27,546 nt of DNA from a virus. Position numbers and translations under genes: made by a program. The stretch is taken from the IMG/VR virus record IMGVR_UViG_3300033388_004136, positions 1-27,546 of that record; one strand, 5' to 3'. Shown here in pieces: positions 3,509-27,546 of this stretch. Positions within the stretch are counted from its first letter, which is position 1. Each line of letters starts with the position of its first letter. The notes under the pieces were generated by a model. It searched no databases. It saw only the letters and a list, made by a program, of their open reading frames with translations, and was not told the DNA's origin.

Positions 3509-4276
3509 ATGGTAATGTTTATGATAGATTTAGTTAAGAAAAAGTGTATGAAGTGTGGTATTGAAAAAAATATCAATGAATTTTATAGGAATAAATCTAC
3601 GAAAGATGGATTGTGTTCATATTGTAAAAATTGTACAAAAAAACATAACAAAAAATATCATTGTGAAAATAGAGATGCATTGAATAAGCAAAAAAGAGAG
3701 CATTACCAAAGAAATAAAATTGAAGCTCTTATAAAAGCAAAAGATTATTACCGAAAGAATAAAGAAAAAGTACGTGAAAAAAATAGAAAATATAATTTAG
3801 AAAACCGTCGTGAGTATTATTACCAAAATAAAGAAAGGATACGTGGGCGAGAAAGATTATATCGTAAGGAAAATCCTGAAAAAATACATAAGAAAGATGG
3901 TAAATATAGTAAAAAGAGAAGGCAAAATCCACAATATAGAGTTTCTATGAATATATCGAGGGGTATATCTCGTTCGCTCATAAAAGGTAAAAATAAACAA
4001 CATTGGGAAGATATTGTGGAGTATACCATTTTTGATTTAAAAGAACATTTAGAGTCTCGATTTAGTGAAGGTATGTCTTGGGACAATTATGGATTTTATG
4101 GTTGGACAATTGACCATATTATCCCTATATCGCTCTGGGAGTTTACATCTTATCAGGACCACGAATTTAAGCAATGTTGGGCTTTGGCAAATTTACAACC
4201 GATGTGGTCCAGTAAAAACTATAGCAAAGGAAATAGATTAAAACCACAACTAAAACAACAAAGGAGAGAAGGATAA
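3509..4276 (+). CDS. freestanding HNH endonuclease (homing type)
   Basis: 255 residues. N-terminal zinc ribbon: C13-x2-C16 paired with C39-x2-C42 (C36 nearby). The middle (about 45-150) is an Arg/Lys/Tyr/Asn-rich helical stretch with repeated 'YxxNKExxR' units, probably for DNA contacts. The C-terminal HNH nuclease has 'IDHIIPIS' with catalytic His203, then 'ALANLQPMWSSKNYSKGNR' with Asn228 and Asn237. Such genes are selfish elements that cut phage genomes lacking them. The ATG at 3509 touches the T-tract of the preceding terminator and no Shine-Dalgarno is visible there or at the alternative starts 3515 and 3521, so the start is uncertain and expression is probably low. The gene is more A-rich than its neighbours, consistent with independent arrival. 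Confidence 0.88.
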   Translation: MVMFMIDLVKKKCMKCGIEKNINEFYRNKSTKDGLCSYCKNCTKKHNKKYHCENRDALNKQKREHYQRNKIEALIKAKDYYRKNKEKVREKNRKYNLENRREYYYQNKERIRGRERLYRKENPEKIHKKDGKYSKKRRQNPQYRVSMNISRGISRSLIKGKNKQHWEDIVEYTIFDLKEHLESRFSEGMSWDNYGFYGWTIDHIIPISLWEFTSYQDHEFKQCWALANLQPMWSSKNYSKGNRLKPQLKQQRREG

Positions 4277-4831: not shown

Positions 4832-5803
4832 ATGACTCTTGCTGGACTCAAAACTGCTATTAATTATAAACTTCGCAATTATGGATATGTTGAATGGGAA
4901 GAACCTGAAATAACTTTTCTAATTAATGAAGGTTATAACGAATTTAACAACATGACTCATTGTCTCAGGAAACGTGGGCAAATTATTATAGTACCAGATC
5001 CTTCATTGTATGCTGTACCATCTGATAATATTGTAATTACACGTGCCACATGGGACGGTACACCGCTGGTTGTTAGAACTGTTGCCGAAATAGATTCAAT
5101 ATATGAAACAAATTGGCGGGCAACAGAAAGCACTCAATTGCGTGCTATAATGCAAGACTCAGAAGGATATGGATATGTACGTACGTATCCAATTATAACT
5201 AGTCAAAACAATATTGGGCATTTAGTAGCAGGAACTGATTCTAATAATTATAGATGTATATTAAATCATACATCAGCAAGTAGTAATAAACCAATAACTG
5301 GTGATGATTATGCAACATATTGGGAGGCATATAGCAGGGCTGGCACTTGGGCTAATGACACATTATATGGTGTTGGAGATGTTGTAGTCGGTACGGATAG
5401 TAAGGATTATAAGTGTATAGTGGCACATACTTCTGCTACAGCAACAAATAAACCGATTACTGGTTCAGCATATAGTACTTATTGGGAAGTTATTACAGGA
5501 ACATGGGCAACAGCAACCGATTATTATAAATATTTAGAGCTTGAGTTGGATTATGTGTATAAACCGACCGATTTATCCGTTTCGACAGATTCACCGTCAA
5601 TACCGGCACAGTATCATCAAGCGTTGGTTCATTATGTGGTATCGCAATCCAAAACAGACGAAGTTCAATCAAATCAAAGTTCTGGCTGGGCAAGTATACA
5701 TTGGAATAGATTTATACAATATGTAAGACGGTGCAAAAATGAAATGGGACGTGGGATAATTGCTGGGAAAAACGATAGGATAATACCGCAAAAATTTATA
5801 TAG
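4832..5803 (+). CDS. head-tail adaptor with two inserted carbohydrate-binding-like modules
   Basis: 323 residues; Shine-Dalgarno weak (AAAGAAAG). Residues 1-127 have the helical opening of connector/adaptor proteins ('ITFLINEGYNEFNNMT'), and residues about 225-323 give the helical closing part ('SIPAQYHQALVHYVVSQSKT' to 'MGRG'). Between them lie two repeats, 128-168 and 171-220, each with 'GTDSxxYxCIxxHTS' then 'NKPITG' and 'YWE'. The second has a full 'GTWANDTLYGVGDVV' lead, and the pattern resembles CBM5/12-like chitin-binding modules found on phage virions. It is the first of three tandem adaptor-like genes. It ends in TAG; reading through would add only eight residues before a TGA. Adaptor role inferred from fold pattern and position. 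Confidence 0.7.
   Translation: MTLAGLKTAINYKLRNYGYVEWEEPEITFLINEGYNEFNNMTHCLRKRGQIIIVPDPSLYAVPSDNIVITRATWDGTPLVVRTVAEIDSIYETNWRATESTQLRAIMQDSEGYGYVRTYPIITSQNNIGHLVAGTDSNNYRCILNHTSASSNKPITGDDYATYWEAYSRAGTWANDTLYGVGDVVVGTDSKDYKCIVAHTSATATNKPITGSAYSTYWEVITGTWATATDYYKYLELELDYVYKPTDLSVSTDSPSIPAQYHQALVHYVVSQSKTDEVQSNQSSGWASIHWNRFIQYVRRCKNEMGRGIIAGKNDRIIPQKFI
5213..5335 (+). repeat. CBM-like module 1 (coding repeat)
   Basis: Encodes residues 128-168 of the adaptor. It shares the pattern GTDSxxYxCIxxHTS...NKPITG...YWE with the next module but lacks the leading Trp-containing strand, so it looks like a shortened copy. Confidence 0.65.
5342..5491 (+). repeat. CBM-like module 2 (coding repeat)
   Basis: Encodes residues 171-220. 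It has the complete arrangement of W173, a Tyr, GD-x-V, Y-x-C, HTS, NKP and YW that is typical of small chitin-binding-like beta modules. The aromatic residues would form the sugar-facing surface in known relatives. Confidence 0.65.
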
Positions 5804-5849
5804 AAACAAAAGAATGAAGTAATATGAAAATTTTAGAATGGAGTAAATT

Positions 5850-6524
5850 ATGGCGGCAATGACAGATAAAACAAAAGCCAATCTTGTAACCGAGGTGCGT
5901 GCTTTAATTAATGAGCCGAATGCTGTGTTGTTTTCCGATGCTGATATTGAGGCGGAAATAGATTTTGCTGCTAATGAAATGACAAAAGCTGGGCTGACTG
6001 GTGAAACTTTTACAAGCCAAGTTATAAGTGATAGTACGCAGGAATATGCTTATACTACGAATTTACCACGACCAGAGGCGGTTATTTATTATGGTGCATC
6101 TGAAACAGCACCGGGTGCGACAGCAAAAACACTTATTAAAACACATCCACGGCAAATGGGTAGAATTGCTAGTAGAACTGTTGCTGGTCCACCGGTTGAA
6201 TGGTGGTTTGTGGATGAGAAAATATGGTTATATCCGATACCTAGTTCGAGTGAAGATGGGCATTATATAAAAATAATTGCACATAATTACCAATCTTATG
6301 TTGAGGGGGTTGTGCCTGATTATTTGCAGGAATATATAATATGGTATGTGTTGGCAAAATGTATGGAAAAAAAGAAAAATTATGCTGCTGCACAGCAATA
6401 TATGGCAATATTTGATTCATTTATTATGTTTCATCGGCTTGATGGTATATATCCAAAACCTGTTGATAGTAAGGATATGATGGTTCAGCAAGATAGAACA
6501 CGTGTAATTCAGGAAAGTAGGTGA
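5850..6524 (+). CDS. head-tail adaptor/connector paralogue 2
   Basis: 224 residues. A Shine-Dalgarno (TGGAG) supports the start. The opening 'EVRALINEPNAVLFSDADIE' and following helices align with the next gene's 'EVRRLLNEPTELVFNDTEID'. The centre has 'KIWLYPIPSS', and the later helix is 'VPDYLQEYIIWYVLAKCMEK', all recurring elements of phage adaptor proteins of the gp6/gp11-like type that sit between portal and tail. It is clearly a paralogue of the following gene and more distantly of the preceding one. It stops with TGA inside the Shine-Dalgarno region of the next gene, so translation of the two is likely coupled. Confidence 0.7.
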   Translation: MAAMTDKTKANLVTEVRALINEPNAVLFSDADIEAEIDFAANEMTKAGLTGETFTSQVISDSTQEYAYTTNLPRPEAVIYYGASETAPGATAKTLIKTHPRQMGRIASRTVAGPPVEWWFVDEKIWLYPIPSSSEDGHYIKIIAHNYQSYVEGVVPDYLQEYIIWYVLAKCMEKKKNYAAAQQYMAIFDSFIMFHRLDGIYPKPVDSKDMMVQQDRTRVIQESR

Positions 6525-6530
6525 TATTAA

Positions 6531-7196
6531 ATGGCAGCATTAACAAAAGCAAACGCATTAGCAGAAGTAAGACGATTATTAAATGAACCTACCGAACTTG
6601 TATTTAATGATACTGAAATAGACGAGTGGCTAGATAGGGGTGCAAGATGTACATCGGCGTTGACATTATGTGAACCAGCTACAGAGTTTGAGAATTTTGA
6701 GGTGAATACTATACATTATACACTAAGCACACATTTTATTAAAGTTAGGTCTGTTATGTATTCATCAGCAACGGGTGTACCAATTAATGGATTACAGAGA
6801 ATGGATATAAGGTGGTTGGGCAATGCATATTCATCGACTTTATCAACACCGAAATTTTGGTATTTACATGGTGACACGTTAATAATATATCCATGCCCCA
6901 CATCTGCATTGGCTGCGAGTGATGCTGGTGTTGAAGTTTATGGTTATGTTGTAGTAGAGGATTATGGTACAAATGGAACAAATTTACCAGATTATTTAAA
7001 CTATTTTGCTGTTAACTATGCGGTTGCACAGGCATATATTAAGGATGGGAAACATAGCAAAGCTGCATTAGAAATGCAAAAATTCATGCGTGGTTGTATG
7101 TTCCATCGCAGAGACAAAATAGACCAGATTGAGAATGTTGATACTGTTGATATGAGGAAAATTCCAGATGTGACATTACCTGCTCAGCAACGATAA
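6531..7196 (+). CDS. head-tail adaptor/connector paralogue 3
   Basis: 221 residues. The start follows a TAGGTGA Shine-Dalgarno overlapping the upstream stop. It has the same domain order as the preceding gene: 'EVRRLLNEPTELVFNDTEID' helix, a beta section with 'DTLIIYPCPTSA', then 'LPDYLNYFAVNYAVAQAYIK' and a C-terminal helix with an Arg-rich 'RGCMFHRRDK', comparable to 'FIMFHRLDG' in paralogue 2. It would form or cap the ring below the portal. Whether the paralogues make one mixed ring or stacked rings cannot be told from sequence. Confidence 0.7.
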   Translation: MAALTKANALAEVRRLLNEPTELVFNDTEIDEWLDRGARCTSALTLCEPATEFENFEVNTIHYTLSTHFIKVRSVMYSSATGVPINGLQRMDIRWLGNAYSSTLSTPKFWYLHGDTLIIYPCPTSALAASDAGVEVYGYVVVEDYGTNGTNLPDYLNYFAVNYAVAQAYIKDGKHSKAALEMQKFMRGCMFHRRDKIDQIENVDTVDMRKIPDVTLPAQQR

Positions 7197-7205
7197 GGAA
7201 TTAAT

Positions 7206-10200
7206 ATGCCTCCCAAAAAAATAATTGTAGATACAAAAATTAATGCTGAGCTTAATTCTGAAATACCTATAGCATCGGATGAAATTACTTCTATTACGGG
7301 ATTAGGTACACCAAATATCAATACTGATATACCTATTGCTGGTACTGAGGAAACGGCTCGTATTGAACAACCAATAGTAAATATCAATACTGATATACCT
7401 ATTGCTGGCGATACATATGGTTCTGCGACAAAAATAAATACAAATCTTTCCACAGAATTTCCCATTGCTCCTGATACATTAGTTCAGGCTATAGAAACAC
7501 GTGCCGAATTGGTAAGTGATTTTCCTGTAGCTGAATCTGTTCCATTAGAGCGGTTTGAATTATCAACTGCTAAGGGACGATGGTTGCCAAAAGGCGATGC
7601 TATTGCCATTGGTGCTGAAAATTTCAGTGAATTGGAAAATTTCAGATACACTGATTTTGGATTGGAGGGTGTTGGTGGATTTACTGAAATAAATACTAGT
7701 GAGCATTTAGGAACAACCGATTTTACCAATGGCATACAGTTAAAAACGAATTATGATACTAATGGTGATGGTATAAATGATAGCCATGTTTTAATGCAAG
7801 GTACTTATAGTGGTACAAGATATATTATTACACACGATGGGAATGTACCCGATGCTAGTAATTTTAATTTTTATATCACCGCTGATGTAAATGATACGTT
7901 GAATTTTACAAGTAATGAAGGCGGTCCATCAGATATAACAATTACACCTAAAGCTTATACTGGCATTACATTAGCTGCAGAAATAGAAACACGGTTAAAT
8001 GATAATAATACATTAACTGGTACTGGTACAATTACATTTGAGGTTACTTTTTCTGGTGGTAGATTTACAATAGATGCTTCTGATGGTGGTACGGCGATAA
8101 AAATAAATGATTCTGAAAGTAATGCAGCAGATAGTATTGGGTTTACAGAAGACCAGGGCGGTGTTGGTATTGATAAAATATATAGTGATACGTTGGTTAG
8201 TAATATTTTATATACCGAGAATGCTTCCGCAGGTGTTGCAAGAATGTCGCAGTTGCCAAACAAGAATATTGGTATATGCGATGGTGTTGATGATTTGATA
8301 TGGGCTGGCGATGAAATGCCAATTAGTGCATTTTTGGAAAGTGTGAATAATACATATGCAAATACAGAGGATTTACCTGATTATACTAATATTGTAACTA
8401 ACAACAATACCACAAGTTATGTTACGGTAAAGGCTTTGGCAGACAGTAGCTATCTTATTGGGGCAATACGACCATTATCTGGTATATATATAAATGTTGG
8501 GACAGTAAATACTGGTACTCCATCAACAATGACCGTATATTATTATACTGGTGCAGATACAATATCAACTGAATTAATGAAAGTTGACGGGACATCGGAT
8601 GGTACTGTCACTCTTGCTCATGATGGATGGGTTACATGGACTCCTCCGCCTGGAGATAAACCATATTATATATCAGGATATTATCTTTATTTTTACCGAA
8701 TTTTAATAAGTAAAATTGCTAATTCTCCCACAATAATTAACATAACAGCAAGGTCTGAAATGCGTAATATAGTTGATTTATGGGATGGTATATATAGAAC
8801 ATGCATATATGCATTAAGACATGATGATAGTCTTGAGGCGCCAGCACCTAAAAATATAGAATATACATTAGAAGTTTCAGATGTATCATATTCATATCTT
8901 GATGAAGATTTTGCTAACAGTTCCAGTGTACAGGGTATACCATTAACATCTGGTGGTGCTTCCGGCGATTTTACAACGAGTGATTATTTATATTTTATGT
9001 TTGATGAACCAATTATAGGATTAAAATTTGTTTTAAAAGGCAATAGTGGCAGTAACCAGCACGTTAAGGTTTATTATACGAGTGGAGTAACTGGAACGTG
9101 GGCGCAGGTTGATGTAAGAAGAGATTCTACAAAACAAATTGGTGGTTCAGCATCATTCAATAGGTCTGGTTTTGTTGTATGGGATGATGATATAACAGAT
9201 GAAAGAAAAGTTACAATAAATAGTATTACTGGATATGCATATAAGATAATGACATCTAATGATATTAAAAATACATATTTATATATAGATGCTGTATATG
9301 GTATTCCCAAGGGGCGTGTTGTAAACAACAATTACGTATTCCCGTTCCAGTATAAAAACCGTGCAATGTGGTGTGGTTCACAAGCCGATAAGGAATATAA
9401 TCGAGTAGATTACAGTAAAGCAAACGCACCTGATGTGTATAATGGTGAAGATGCAAGTGGATATTTTAATGAACGTTCTCTTTATTTTGGCGGTAGTGGG
9501 GCATTAACGTGTGCCGTTGAATTATTTAATCAGTATGGACAAGATGTGTTTACCGCCGCACTATTTTTTAAGAACACTGAAGCATATATGTTGACTGGCG
9601 ATATGCCAGAAGATTTCAGGATATTGCCGATTTCACATAGTATCGGATGCCCAGCGCCATTAACAATAACATCTGCCGAAGTATCATATAAAGCATTGGA
9701 TGCACCCGCACAAAATGTTGCAATATGGTTATCTGATAAAGGCCCAATGATGTTTATTAGTAATACAATTCATGCAATTCCTGGTGTGGAAAATTATTTC
9801 GACCCTAGTGATAGCAATAGCATCGATGTTGATTATATAGATAAAGCGAGTGCATGGTTTGACCCAACATATCAAGAATGGAATTTATTAGTACCAATAA
9901 AAGTAAATGGTGCAGCACAATCCATAAACAATACATGGCTTGTTTATGATTTAAGGCGGTCGAAATGGTATCAAAAAACACTAGATGATAAATTCCCGCA
10001 GGGTGCATTCCCAGTTCAAGACCAATATGGTATAAACTATATATATGGATTTGATAATGGTGGGTTTTTATTAAGAATGGAAGATGGATTAGCGTGGGGA
10101 ACCGGTGGTAGCACAATTCAAAATAAGGTAACAACCAGCGATTTTTTTTTCACAAACAGCACGTGGGATAGAACGCGTATAAGACGGTTAACAAGTATGT

Positions 10201-24196: not shown

Positions 24197-24222
24197 ATAT
24201 ATAATTTAAAAAGGATGGGAAA

Positions 24223-24660
24223 ATGAAAAAAACATTTATGATATTTCTTGTTGTATTATCCATTGTCGGTATTTTGTTTGCACAGGAAGTATTGGATATT
24301 ACAACAACATTGGAAAATTCAGCAACAGACCTGCCAGCATTCGGCACAAGAGGTGCTAGGAAAATAATAGTTTGGTACAGTATGCCCGATTCGACTGACA
24401 CCCTTTATACTAGGATTACTGGTGCAAGTAAATTAGCAGATACATTTGTAAACTTAGATTCTAATGGTGATACAACCAAATATTCATTATCAGTGGGACA
24501 ATCTGAATGGGGTTTTGGTATTGTGATTGAGCACGTTCCTCCATTCCTAAAAATAGAAGTTGACAGCTTAGCATATTCGGACGATACAGTGTGGGATATG
24601 GCGACTGGTACTCGATATAGTGATGATGTCGTTACTATTCGCACTCAATTAATATATTAA
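24223..24660 (+). CDS. secreted protein of unknown function (signal peptide)
   Basis: 145 residues with Shine-Dalgarno AAAGGATGG. The N-terminus is a textbook Sec signal: MKK, a hydrophobic core at residues 4-19, and a cleavage site LFA|Q at 20-21. The mature part (about 125 residues) is rich in Thr, Asp, Ser and Val with alternating hydrophobics, so a small beta-sandwich is likely. No Cys-anchored lipobox and no C-terminal anchor are seen. The next gene encodes another signal-peptide protein 14 bases downstream, so the two are probably co-translated and exported to the host periplasm or surface during infection or lysogeny. No family is recognised. Confidence 0.7.
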   Translation: MKKTFMIFLVVLSIVGILFAQEVLDITTTLENSATDLPAFGTRGARKIIVWYSMPDSTDTLYTRITGASKLADTFVNLDSNGDTTKYSLSVGQSEWGFGIVIEHVPPFLKIEVDSLAYSDDTVWDMATGTRYSDDVVTIRTQLIY

Positions 24661-24674
24661 GGGGAATTGATAAT

Positions 24675-25541
24675 ATGAAAAAACTGATAGTTTTAATTAC
24701 AATTGTGTTATTATTATATACTGTTCCACAAATACAAGCACAATTGATTAAAATCCAGAGTGAAGATTTTGAAGCGTATGATGCAAATATTCAAAAAGTA
24801 GTGGGAACAGTTGGGGATGACAGTACAAATTGGAAAACAGCTTATGATAATTATGTAGTTATAGATTATGCTGGTATATATACCTATGATGCTGATATAT
24901 CAACTACAATCGACCTTACCGACCAGTATCATAAACTTACGATATTTACCGCTGATATGGAAGAAAGTGTAAGTAATGGTGCTCATGCTACAGATAATAT
25001 TACGATTGGTGCTACAGGTACATATTTAGTAAGATATGATATCTGCTGTGAGGTAGCCGCAGGAGCTAAAGACTTTGCATTTGATGTTTTTGAGATAGCC
25101 GCCGCTGCATCAGGAACTGCAATTACAGGAATAACCGAGGCAACCCCAGGAGTTGTAACGACATCAGAAAATCATGGCCTAGAAGATGGTGATAAGATTA
25201 AAATAACCGGTGTGGTTGGTATGGTTATGGTTAATGATAAGCTTTTTACTGTAGCAAATAAGACTGATAAGACTTTTGAATTAACGGATGATGAAGGTAT
25301 TGATGTCAATACTGCTGGTGTAGCGTGGTCATCTGGGGGTACTGTTCACGTTGCTACACAATTATACATAACACATGCACACTCTGAAGCTTCTAATCAG
25401 GATATAGCAAGAACAACTGCTGCTGGTGGTTATGTATTATTGACAAAAGATAATGTAGTTGAAATGTATGTTAAGAATATTACTGATGCCACTAATATTT
25501 TAATTATAGATGGACAATTTAGAATAGAAAGAAAAAAATAA
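24675..25541 (+). CDS. secreted jelly-roll-like protein with inserted E1-FCCH-like domain
   Basis: 288 residues, Shine-Dalgarno AAGGGGA. Signal peptide at 1-22 (MKK, Leu/Ile-rich core, cleavage IQA|Q). Residues about 30-145 and 226-288 read like the two halves of a C1q/TNF-type jelly roll ('NITIGATGTYLVRYDICCEV', later 'YVLLTKDNVVEMYVKNITDA' and the closing strand 'DGQFRIER'). Residues 149-224 between them match the phage form of the E1-FCCH domain: 'ITGITEATPGVVTTSENHGL', 'GDKIKITG', 'FTVANKTDKTFELT', 'SSGGTV'. Such jelly rolls are usually virion-bound in phages; the export signal makes this one unusual. It may bind a surface ligand after secretion. Confidence 0.7.
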   Translation: MKKLIVLITIVLLLYTVPQIQAQLIKIQSEDFEAYDANIQKVVGTVGDDSTNWKTAYDNYVVIDYAGIYTYDADISTTIDLTDQYHKLTIFTADMEESVSNGAHATDNITIGATGTYLVRYDICCEVAAGAKDFAFDVFEIAAAASGTAITGITEATPGVVTTSENHGLEDGDKIKITGVVGMVMVNDKLFTVANKTDKTFELTDDEGIDVNTAGVAWSSGGTVHVATQLYITHAHSEASNQDIARTTAAGGYVLLTKDNVVEMYVKNITDATNILIIDGQFRIERKK

Positions 25542-25603: not shown

Positions 25604-25717
25604 ATGCCTGATAAAAATGGAAAAGGTCCAAGACAAAGAAGTCCATATCCAAGTAAAAGAAGGGGTGGTCGTAAAAAGGGTAAATGTTCTCCAGCAAAAC
25701 AATCCAAAAAAAAGTAA
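25604..25717 (+). CDS. 37-residue basic protein, weakly DUF5320-like
   Basis: Shine-Dalgarno AGGGGTG precedes ATG at 25604. The opening MPDKNGKGPR followed by RRGGRKKGKC recalls the short conserved MPxxDGTGPxG...TGRxxGxC pattern of DUF5320-type microproteins. Lys and Arg make up over a third of residues and there is one Cys. It lies 15 bases before the endolysin gene in the same direction. A nucleic-acid or anionic-surface binding role is possible from charge alone. Confidence 0.55.
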   Translation: MPDKNGKGPRQRSPYPSKRRGGRKKGKCSPAKQSKKK

Positions 25718-26675: not shown

Positions 26676-27546
26676 ATGAACAATAAAAGAACACAGGAAG
26701 ATATAGCAAAACAACGGACTTCAGACCTTATTGTTGGACTCACGAGCAAAATAAATTCAGCTACACTCAGCGCCGCTCAAGTTAACGCCGCGTGTGATAC
26801 AGCATTAACGGACTACGATGCACCAACACGTGCAGAAGCAACTGCCGATAAAGTCGCAATTATTACAGAAGTTAATGCAAACGAAACCAAAATTGACGCA
26901 GTTAAGGGTGATACCGCAGCATTACTATTAGATACAGCAGTTATTGGCGCTTTAGGGGCTGGATTAACGGCAATCCCTTGGAACTCAGATTGGGATACCG
27001 AGGTACAAAGTGAATGTGCAGATGCATTAACAACTTACGATGCACCAACAAAAGCCGAAATGGATGCTGGGCATGCTTTACTCGCGACACCTGCTCAAGT
27101 TGCAACAGCATTAACGGATTATGATGCACCAACAAAAGCTGAGCTTGATACTACAGAAAGTAATATTAGGGGGGCTGATAGTGATACACTTAAAACACTT
27201 TCTGACCAAATTGATGGTATAGGTGGAGGTGGTGGTGGTGATGCTACAGAGGCAAAACAGGATATTATTATTGCCGATATTTCAGCAGCAGTTCCTGACA
27301 CACCAACAGCAAAATCATTGCAAGATATATTAAGTAAAGCTGATGGCTCAAATACTTTTGATAATACAACTGATAGTTTAGAAGCAATTAGTGAATACAT
27401 AAGATTTAAAAAAGCTTTTACAATAACAACAACTACATCAGCATCCTATGTAAATATGATGAATTTATCAACAGTGGGGGAACTTATAGCAGTTGGCATT
27501 GAATCAAGGAATGTGGGAGCAGACCAAGTATTTTGTACGATTAATG
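26676..27546 (+). CDS. repeat-rich fibre-like structural protein, 5' part only
   Basis: The reading frame is open from ATG at 26676 to the window edge (290 complete codons, no stop). GGGAG ten bases upstream supports the start. The N-terminal part is Ala/Thr/Asp-rich and helical with three 'ALTxYDAPTxAE' repeats, an acidic Ala-rich section between, a run of Gly ('GIGGGGGGDA') near residue 190, then a new region with 'ATSASYVNM'-like beta sequence. Repeats of the 'YDAPTKAEMDA' type followed by Gly linkers are common in phage tail fibres and other elongated virion proteins. It is the first gene after the lysis genes and could encode a second fibre. Confidence 0.65.
   Translation, partial: MNNKRTQEDIAKQRTSDLIVGLTSKINSATLSAAQVNAACDTALTDYDAPTRAEATADKVAIITEVNANETKIDAVKGDTAALLLDTAVIGALGAGLTAIPWNSDWDTEVQSECADALTTYDAPTKAEMDAGHALLATPAQVATALTDYDAPTKAELDTTESNIRGADSDTLKTLSDQIDGIGGGGGGDATEAKQDIIIADISAAVPDTPTAKSLQDILSKADGSNTFDNTTDSLEAISEYIRFKKAFTITTTTSASYVNMMNLSTVGELIAVGIESRNVGADQVFCTIN
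26802..27144 (+). repeat. three ALTxYDAPTxAE coding repeats
   Basis: Units begin at about 26802, 27023 and 27108, each starting GCATTAAC and sharing GATGCACCAACA. They encode helical/linker repeats in the partial fibre-like gene. Confidence 0.8.

Follow-up and report, generated by a model that had tools for sequence, protein, structure and literature searches.

The structural proteins of tailed phages are made and assembled in the cytoplasm. Why, then, would a phage carry two adjacent genes for exported proteins in its late region, and what might their products do beyond the inner membrane? Such a pair had been predicted in the viral DNA examined here, a stretch of 27,546 nucleotides (IMG/VR record IMGVR_UViG_3300033388_004136; the window). 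Both reading frames are open on the + strand at the predicted positions, they lie 14 bp apart, and each begins with a candidate signal ending in an A|Q site, so that the pair of adjacent signal-peptide proteins is borne out. Their features are as follows:

24212-24219, + strand: ribosome-binding site of ORF A, AGGATGGG (from the sequence)
24223-24660, + strand: ORF A, 145 aa, predicted exported orphan protein
24223-24282, + strand: predicted signal peptide of A, 20 aa, ...GILFA|Q (n/h/c-region heuristic)
24283-24657, + strand: mature A, 125 aa, net charge -9, no Cys, five D[ST][AILMVT] motifs
24660-24665, + strand: ribosome-binding site of ORF B, AGGGGA (from the sequence)
24675-25541, + strand: ORF B, 288 aa, predicted exported protein with an FCCH insert
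24675-24740, + strand: predicted signal peptide of B, 22 aa, ...PQIQA|Q (n/h/c-region heuristic)
24858-25142, + strand: first half of a possible C1q/BclA_C-type jelly roll of B, conserved in contigs L011 and L029
25143-25295, + strand: E1_FCCH domain of B (Pfam PF16190), between both jelly-roll halves
25338-25538, + strand: second half of the possible jelly roll of B (conservation, and Pfam after removal of the insert)

Both ribosome-binding sites are purine-rich. The N-terminal segments, MKKTFMIFLVVLSIVGILFA|QEV in A and MKKLIVLITIVLLLYTVPQIQA|QLI in B, combine a positive n-region, a hydrophobic core, and an A|Q site, as in a Sec signal of the signal peptidase I (SPI) type. We called signal peptides with our own heuristic, which looks for n-, h-, and c-regions and an AxA-type site without a further transmembrane segment, a combination that it finds in both proteins. 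Tested on two stretches of Escherichia coli K-12, with assumed class labels, it flags 17 of 21 exported proteins, 1 of 43 that are cytoplasmic, and 1 of 25 from the membrane. In the podophage of the window, the proposed signal-peptide check singled out A and B alone (2 of 23 genes), and none of the 62 genes called on an overlapping 49-kb contig of the same phage, which ends before A, was flagged. A signal-peptide-like start arose in 65 of 5,000 shuffled sequences of A (1.3%) and 29 of 5,000 of B (0.6%). No other 19-residue stretch is strongly hydrophobic in either protein (best mean outside the N terminus, 0.91 in A and 1.27 in B), and no lipobox was found in them; therefore, a cleavable SPI signal is the natural reading. 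Sec export of A and B, late in infection as the original prediction had it, is thus well supported at the level of sequence.

Two other classes of exported protein were considered and rejected. Spanins and the superinfection exclusion proteins Llp, Cor, and Ltp are marked by a lipobox cysteine or a retained transmembrane anchor; A and B have no lipobox, and their only hydrophobic stretch is N-terminal. Neither protein gave a C-terminal T9SS domain match (Pfam E values up to 1; NCBIfam E values up to 0.1), as would be expected of T9SS cargo.

The surroundings of the pair agree with its assignment to a phage late region. Upstream lie genes for a capsid protein (phrog_267), three SU10-type adaptors, and a 2522-aa protein; downstream lies an endolysin gene (phrog_465), with nothing but a basic ORF of 37 aa and another, very short ORF between it and ORF B. 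The capsid protein has matches in 387 phage records, of which 280 belong to Mycobacterium phages, and the best among the matches listed are Rhizobium phages at 40%, with HMO-2011 at 29%. From these matches, the very large protein, and known features of the group, we infer that the window phage is an HMO-2011-like podophage. In Rhizobium phage RHph_TM3_14A, the six genes after a 2307-aa protein are all small (46 to 171 aa), and only the 171-aa protein is flagged, with several hydrophobic stretches visible by eye. The 37-aa ORF of the window (25604-25717) is very basic, and in RHph_TM3_14A, too, the large protein is followed by a small basic gene. Scans for promoters and terminators gave results at chance level, and no tRNA was found in the four loci scanned (L008 to L011).

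We looked for relatives of both proteins. None was found for A in 50,697 phage records or, with peptide patterns, in the IMG/VR viral contigs, and PDB sequences gave nothing convincing; by inspection alone, A is probably beta-rich. In B, the E1_FCCH domain (PF16190) is recognized with an E value of 1e-10 and 42 bits against a cut-off of 29.5. Of the 23 phage records matching B, the best 20 align only from residue 158 onward, and they are annotated as tail, stabilization, baseplate-like, FCCH, or hypothetical proteins. A PDB sequence search with B returned essentially the FCCH domain (best E value, 0.01) and one phage tail protein (0.22), and the single match in a plasmid search was FCCH-only. 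Two relatives share 63 to 64% identity with B over 226 aa, one in L011 (64% over residues 62-286) and one in L029 (63%), and both have signal peptides. Once the insert is removed, the best Pfam match of all three proteins is BclA_C, which we take to be a C1q-type jelly roll, with E values of 0.23, 9.4e-5, and 0.0027 and scores of 11.8 to 22.7 bits, below the cut-off of 38. Comparison of the B jelly roll with two phage C1q-type proteins lacking signal peptides was not significant (hhalign probability, 4.9%), and an AlphaFold2 model of B from three sequences (pLDDT, 36) was not used; a C1q/BclA-type jelly roll in B is therefore given as possible. As an exact pair, A and B are not a conserved unit: A has no relative in the collections searched, and only B recurs.

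The relatives of B reside in long-tailed phages whose capsid protein is unrelated to that of the window. L011 has a tape-measure-type protein (PF10145), from which we label the group siphophage, a phrog_29 capsid protein, and no DNA match to the window. Its B relative is the third of three adjacent signal-peptide genes, and in both L011 and L029 the B relative closes a run that opens with a small protein, SP1. The middle gene of L011 led to contig L013, with four consecutive signal-peptide genes. A search with the capsid proteins yielded 17 loci, 13 distinct once identical ones were merged (L017 and L023 are the same contigs as L011 and L013), and 10 with enough upstream DNA to be judged; L020 and L030, which begin just before the scaffold gene, and the short L031/L032 were left unjudged. 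Among these 10 distinct contigs, six (L011, L013, L018, L024, L026, and L029) carry one to four signal-peptide genes before the scaffold gene, and four (L021, L022, L025, and L033) carry none there. The cassettes directly precede genes for the scaffold (phrog_172), a putative decoration protein, and the major capsid protein (MCP). At the same place, L026 has a pair unrelated in sequence to the other signal-peptide proteins.

The sister contigs L013 and L022 align at 88.6% before the cassette (306 bp) and at 90.5% after it (4038 bp), and L022 is without the roughly 3-kb cassette of L013. This suggests that the cassette was gained or lost as a block, and there is good reason to regard it as accessory. 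In L033, a 22-codon ORF joins a signal-peptide-like start to GTGTLVP, the end of SP2 proteins, and is a possible deletion remnant. The signal and mature part of SP2, the middle gene of the run, lie in different frames in L029 (3055-3144); in L024, the automatic caller took a later start of SP2, and the earlier ATG gives the signal. We left outside the cassette count two flagged membrane proteins of L013, six flagged genes of G003 (one with a lipoprotein-like start and one with a further hydrophobic stretch), and three of G006, as well as weaker alternative starts in L011, L024, and L025, one L014 protein, the RHph_TM3_14A 171-aa protein, and an 82-aa ORF of L033 (406-654) whose start is twin-arginine-like. 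The 50,697 phage records included no match to SP1 or SP2, genome contigs scanned with the capsid alignment and with that of the B pair contained no relative, and a PDB sequence search with SP1 and the insert-free B jelly roll gave nothing convincing. The undescribed small system that had been proposed thus stands in a modified form: signal-peptide genes with fiber- or adhesin-like domains recur, optionally, in a second phage lineage, and the exact combination of A and B does not.

Is the export signal itself maintained? Among the five SP1 proteins, pairwise identity is 15 to 55% in the signal peptide and 48 to 65% in the mature part, and the signal is the less conserved of the two in 9 of 10 pairs, L018-L029 being the exception (0.55 versus 0.49). 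At the aligned cleavage site, Q is invariant (5/5), following AYA, ASA, GHS, AAG, or GHA; the first-choice site of the heuristic differs from it in three of the five proteins. By inspection, A|ET is kept in all three intact SP2 genes, again not as the heuristic's first choice. SP3 and SP4 of L013 and an L029 protein have in common an N-terminal signal peptide and GDVF[ILV]NG, followed by differing C-terminal parts. Since SP1 signals drift faster than the mature part and yet keep their character, export is probably selected in this family.

The sequences themselves show the predicted signals, that these recur and keep their character in one family, and that the cassette is there or missing as a whole; the role that we propose goes further. 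We tentatively favor, as the leading candidate among several, the reading that cassettes of the A/B type encode late, Sec-exported, adhesin-like proteins that occupy receptors or envelope sites. A and B would belong to a broader kind of optional cassette, with one to four adjacent genes that join an export signal to fiber- or decoration-type domains: a possible C1q-like jelly roll with an FCCH insert, a small beta-sandwich, a repeat stalk, and a beta-helix, the last two read by eye and without a family match. Made late, A and B would cross the inner membrane through the Sec machinery of the host, and SPI would cleave off their signals. The cassette proteins would then fold in the periplasm, accumulate late in infection, and bind envelope or surface receptors. 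Occupation of these sites could prevent further phages from adsorbing to a cell already doomed and spare released progeny from being caught on debris. Receptor masking seems the likeliest role for an optional late module; that an unrelated virus group has comparable optional sets of genes suggests that some phages export adhesin-like proteins through host secretion. C1q domains of marine phages have been described as host-recognition modules (PMC3909814).

The genes near the cassettes suit a surface role. In a Pfam scan covering ten proteins, family-2 glycosyltransferases were found above the cut-off in L011 and L026, a family-1 glycosyltransferase in L013, and methyltransferases in L011, L013, and L029; the glycosyltransferase genes lie upstream. 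The location of the cassettes, adjoining head genes in the siphophage group and the endolysin gene in the window, also suits virion decoration or lysis. Moreover, the search for lipoprotein and T9SS sorting signals was negative, so that in a diderm host the proteins might stay in the periplasm and never reach the surface. We rejected the idea that they are decoys of the phage's own fiber: none of the cassette proteins matched anything encoded outside the cassette on its own contig (E <= 0.01), and the window fiber at 26676 matched nothing at this threshold, so that, within these partial contigs, they are not simple copies of the phage's own receptor-binding protein. Two membrane-protein ORFs precede the cassette in L013 (4995-5944), and the first of them shows a weak, below-cut-off similarity to PMT_2 (mannosyltransferase).

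Second in rank, and doubtful, comes virion decoration outside the cytoplasm, in which head-fiber or decoration proteins would mature in the periplasm, perhaps glycosylated, and join capsids at lysis. The position of the siphophage-group cassettes just before the scaffold, putative decoration, and MCP genes would fit it, as would the common N-terminal module and varied C-terminal parts of SP3 and SP4, which recall the shared attachment end of fibers. Signal-less copies of the SP2 C-terminal domain are present in L014 (55%) and L015 (47%); the L015 copy follows a capsid gene (phrog_24667) by about 2.4 kb, with six called small genes between. Among ten L014 and L015 proteins scanned, one of L014 had a weak tail match (E value, 0.0085). 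The gene next to the signal-less domain in L014 encodes a C1q-type protein (below the Pfam cut-off), also without a signal peptide, whose start, MPVFINGV, resembles the mature start of SP3 and SP4. In HMO-2011, small genes annotated as tail fiber or C1q stand in a row, and the heuristic flagged none of 22 genes checked in its structural region. Judging from these few cases, virion-type modules may have acquired an export signal, and a virion-type ancestry of the cassette domains, which speaks for the favored adhesin reading as well, can fairly be supposed.

The virion reading also draws on the motif D[ST][AILMVT], the O-glycosylation motif reported for Bacteroidota (PMC8550257). Seventeen cassette proteins contain 49 copies of it (expected, 29.1), a count reached in none of 400 shuffles, and the other called proteins of at least 90 aa contain 242 (expected, 243.1). 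The excess stems from A (5 versus 1.3 expected), SP1 (3.2 versus 0.5), and partly SP2. However, the B family is poor in the motif (0.3 versus 2.4 expected), SP3, SP4, and the L026 pair have about as many copies as expected, and because homologs are not independent, the enrichment is only a lead. Further against this reading, the proteins would reach capsids only at lysis, and we know of no tailed phage that assembles virion parts extracytoplasmically in this way. A wider proposition, which we consider unlikely, is that some tailed phages make virion-surface or adhesive proteins via Sec and the periplasm, possibly O-glycosylated, to coat progeny or host at lysis, on a cassette exchangeable between unrelated lineages.

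It is improbable that these are general envelope-modification or moron-type genes unconnected with receptors, as an optional cassette with glycosyltransferase and methyltransferase neighbors might be taken to be. Porphyromonas gingivalis phages offer a close parallel: as here, they carry genes of unknown function with SPI signals cut before Q (the Q-rule), for which action on the envelope is supposed (PMC10367356). The consulted portion of that report describes no fiber-type domains or cassettes, whereas the present genes encode virion-type domains and sit in the structural or lysis region of two other lineages.

Ranked next, and likewise improbable, is a role as lysis helpers, in which small exported beta-sandwich proteins like XepA and YomS would target the membrane or the periplasm as infection ends. 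The endolysin gene follows A and B at a short distance, and the SP1 model, a beta-sandwich (pLDDT of 73 for the best of five, 50 to 64 for the others), has XepA (6i56_B; Z score, 10.7; 104 residues aligned; rmsd, 3.1), a phage baseplate protein (10.4), and YomS (6i5o_A; 10.3) as its top three PDB matches. These Bacillus prophage proteins belong to lytic cassettes, and XepA is reported to be exported in phage development, absent from mature particles, and cytotoxic (PMC6834076). Yet domains of a subtilisin-type protease, furin, and birnavirus VP2 also match at Z scores of 9.4 to 9.8, and since unrelated jelly rolls score 9 to 9.8, a tie within 1 to 2 Z units, the fold match is generic. Against a viral fold library, the model gave 94 matches at E <= 0.001, with TM scores of at most about 0.6 among the best 50, and many of those listed are uncharacterized phage proteins. 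XepA is a two-domain cytotoxic pentamer, no sequence relation between XepA/YomS and the present proteins was found, and runs of exported genes are not described in the available text (PMC6834076). Moreover, B resembles a binding module, and the siphophage-group cassettes adjoin head genes. Nor can the fold result be transferred to A; the hhalign match of A to SP1 covers only the signal peptide (probability, 4%), and we do not claim A as an SP1 homolog.

Finally, the hydrophobic N termini are very unlikely to be uncleaved anchors, a possibility named in the original prediction, or chance hydrophobic starts: cleavage of A and B is a prediction, and for three of the five SP1 proteins the heuristic prefers a site other than the aligned Q site, but small residues at -3 and -1 and the invariant Q are kept while the SP1 signal drifts, shuffles rarely give such starts, and up to four signal-peptide genes stand in a row.

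How do the cassettes compare with known exported phage proteins? T4 Sp, Llp, and Cor are exported superinfection proteins; unlike the lipoproteins among them, A and B have no lipobox, and the likeness is one of description only. The same holds for the T4 antiholin RI, a Sec-exported, superinfection-linked protein with a cleavable signal peptide (PMC8385771). The arrays of HMO-2011-type marine phages encode C1q domains along with other binding modules in successive small genes (PMC3909814), as here, but HMO-2011, a distant capsid relative (29% identity), lacks the signal peptides, by our heuristic. Phage genes with signal peptides are already on record (PMC10367356 and PMC5723332). In the literature searched, which largely leaves out subscription papers, we found among the papers listed no report of signal-peptide-bearing fiber-type cassettes; exported phage proteins being known, it is this recurring cassette that may be new. 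Recurring, optional, fiber-like proteins with kept export signals would imply that some phages use binding modules beyond the membrane, which would open a new level of competition, among phages and between phage and host, or a new site of virion maturation.

Some features bear on the host. Q at P1', the Bacteroidetes Q-rule, is found in A, B, and the aligned site of all five SP1 proteins, and fits a Bacteroidota host. By inspection, SP2 sites precede E and SP3 and SP4 sites precede D, so the Q-rule is not general to cassette members. Shine-Dalgarno matches precede 63 to 75% of genes against 6 to 19% of random sites in six sequence sets, a frequency unusual for Bacteroidota. High Q-values are also reported outside Bacteroidota, for example, in Ignavibacterium (PMC5837995). 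The co-assembly behind L018, L022, and L028 comes from Ace Lake, Antarctica (PMC8542988).

Other observations concern the window upstream of the pair. An endonuclease VII-like gene (3509-4276) lies between the capsid and adaptor genes. The three SU10_adaptor-type genes stand in a row (4832-7196), and the first holds a weak CBM_5_12 chitin-binding match below the cut-off. In the gene for a 1192-aa protein, an identical 30-bp direct repeat (7313-7342 and 7379-7408) encodes NINTDIPIAG twice. IMG/VR contig 3300033145_001073 overlaps positions 1-23416 of the window at 99.98 to 99.99% identity and ends before A; a 69-bp in-frame segment of the 1192-aa protein gene (9792-9860) is missing from this otherwise near-identical contig (99.98%).
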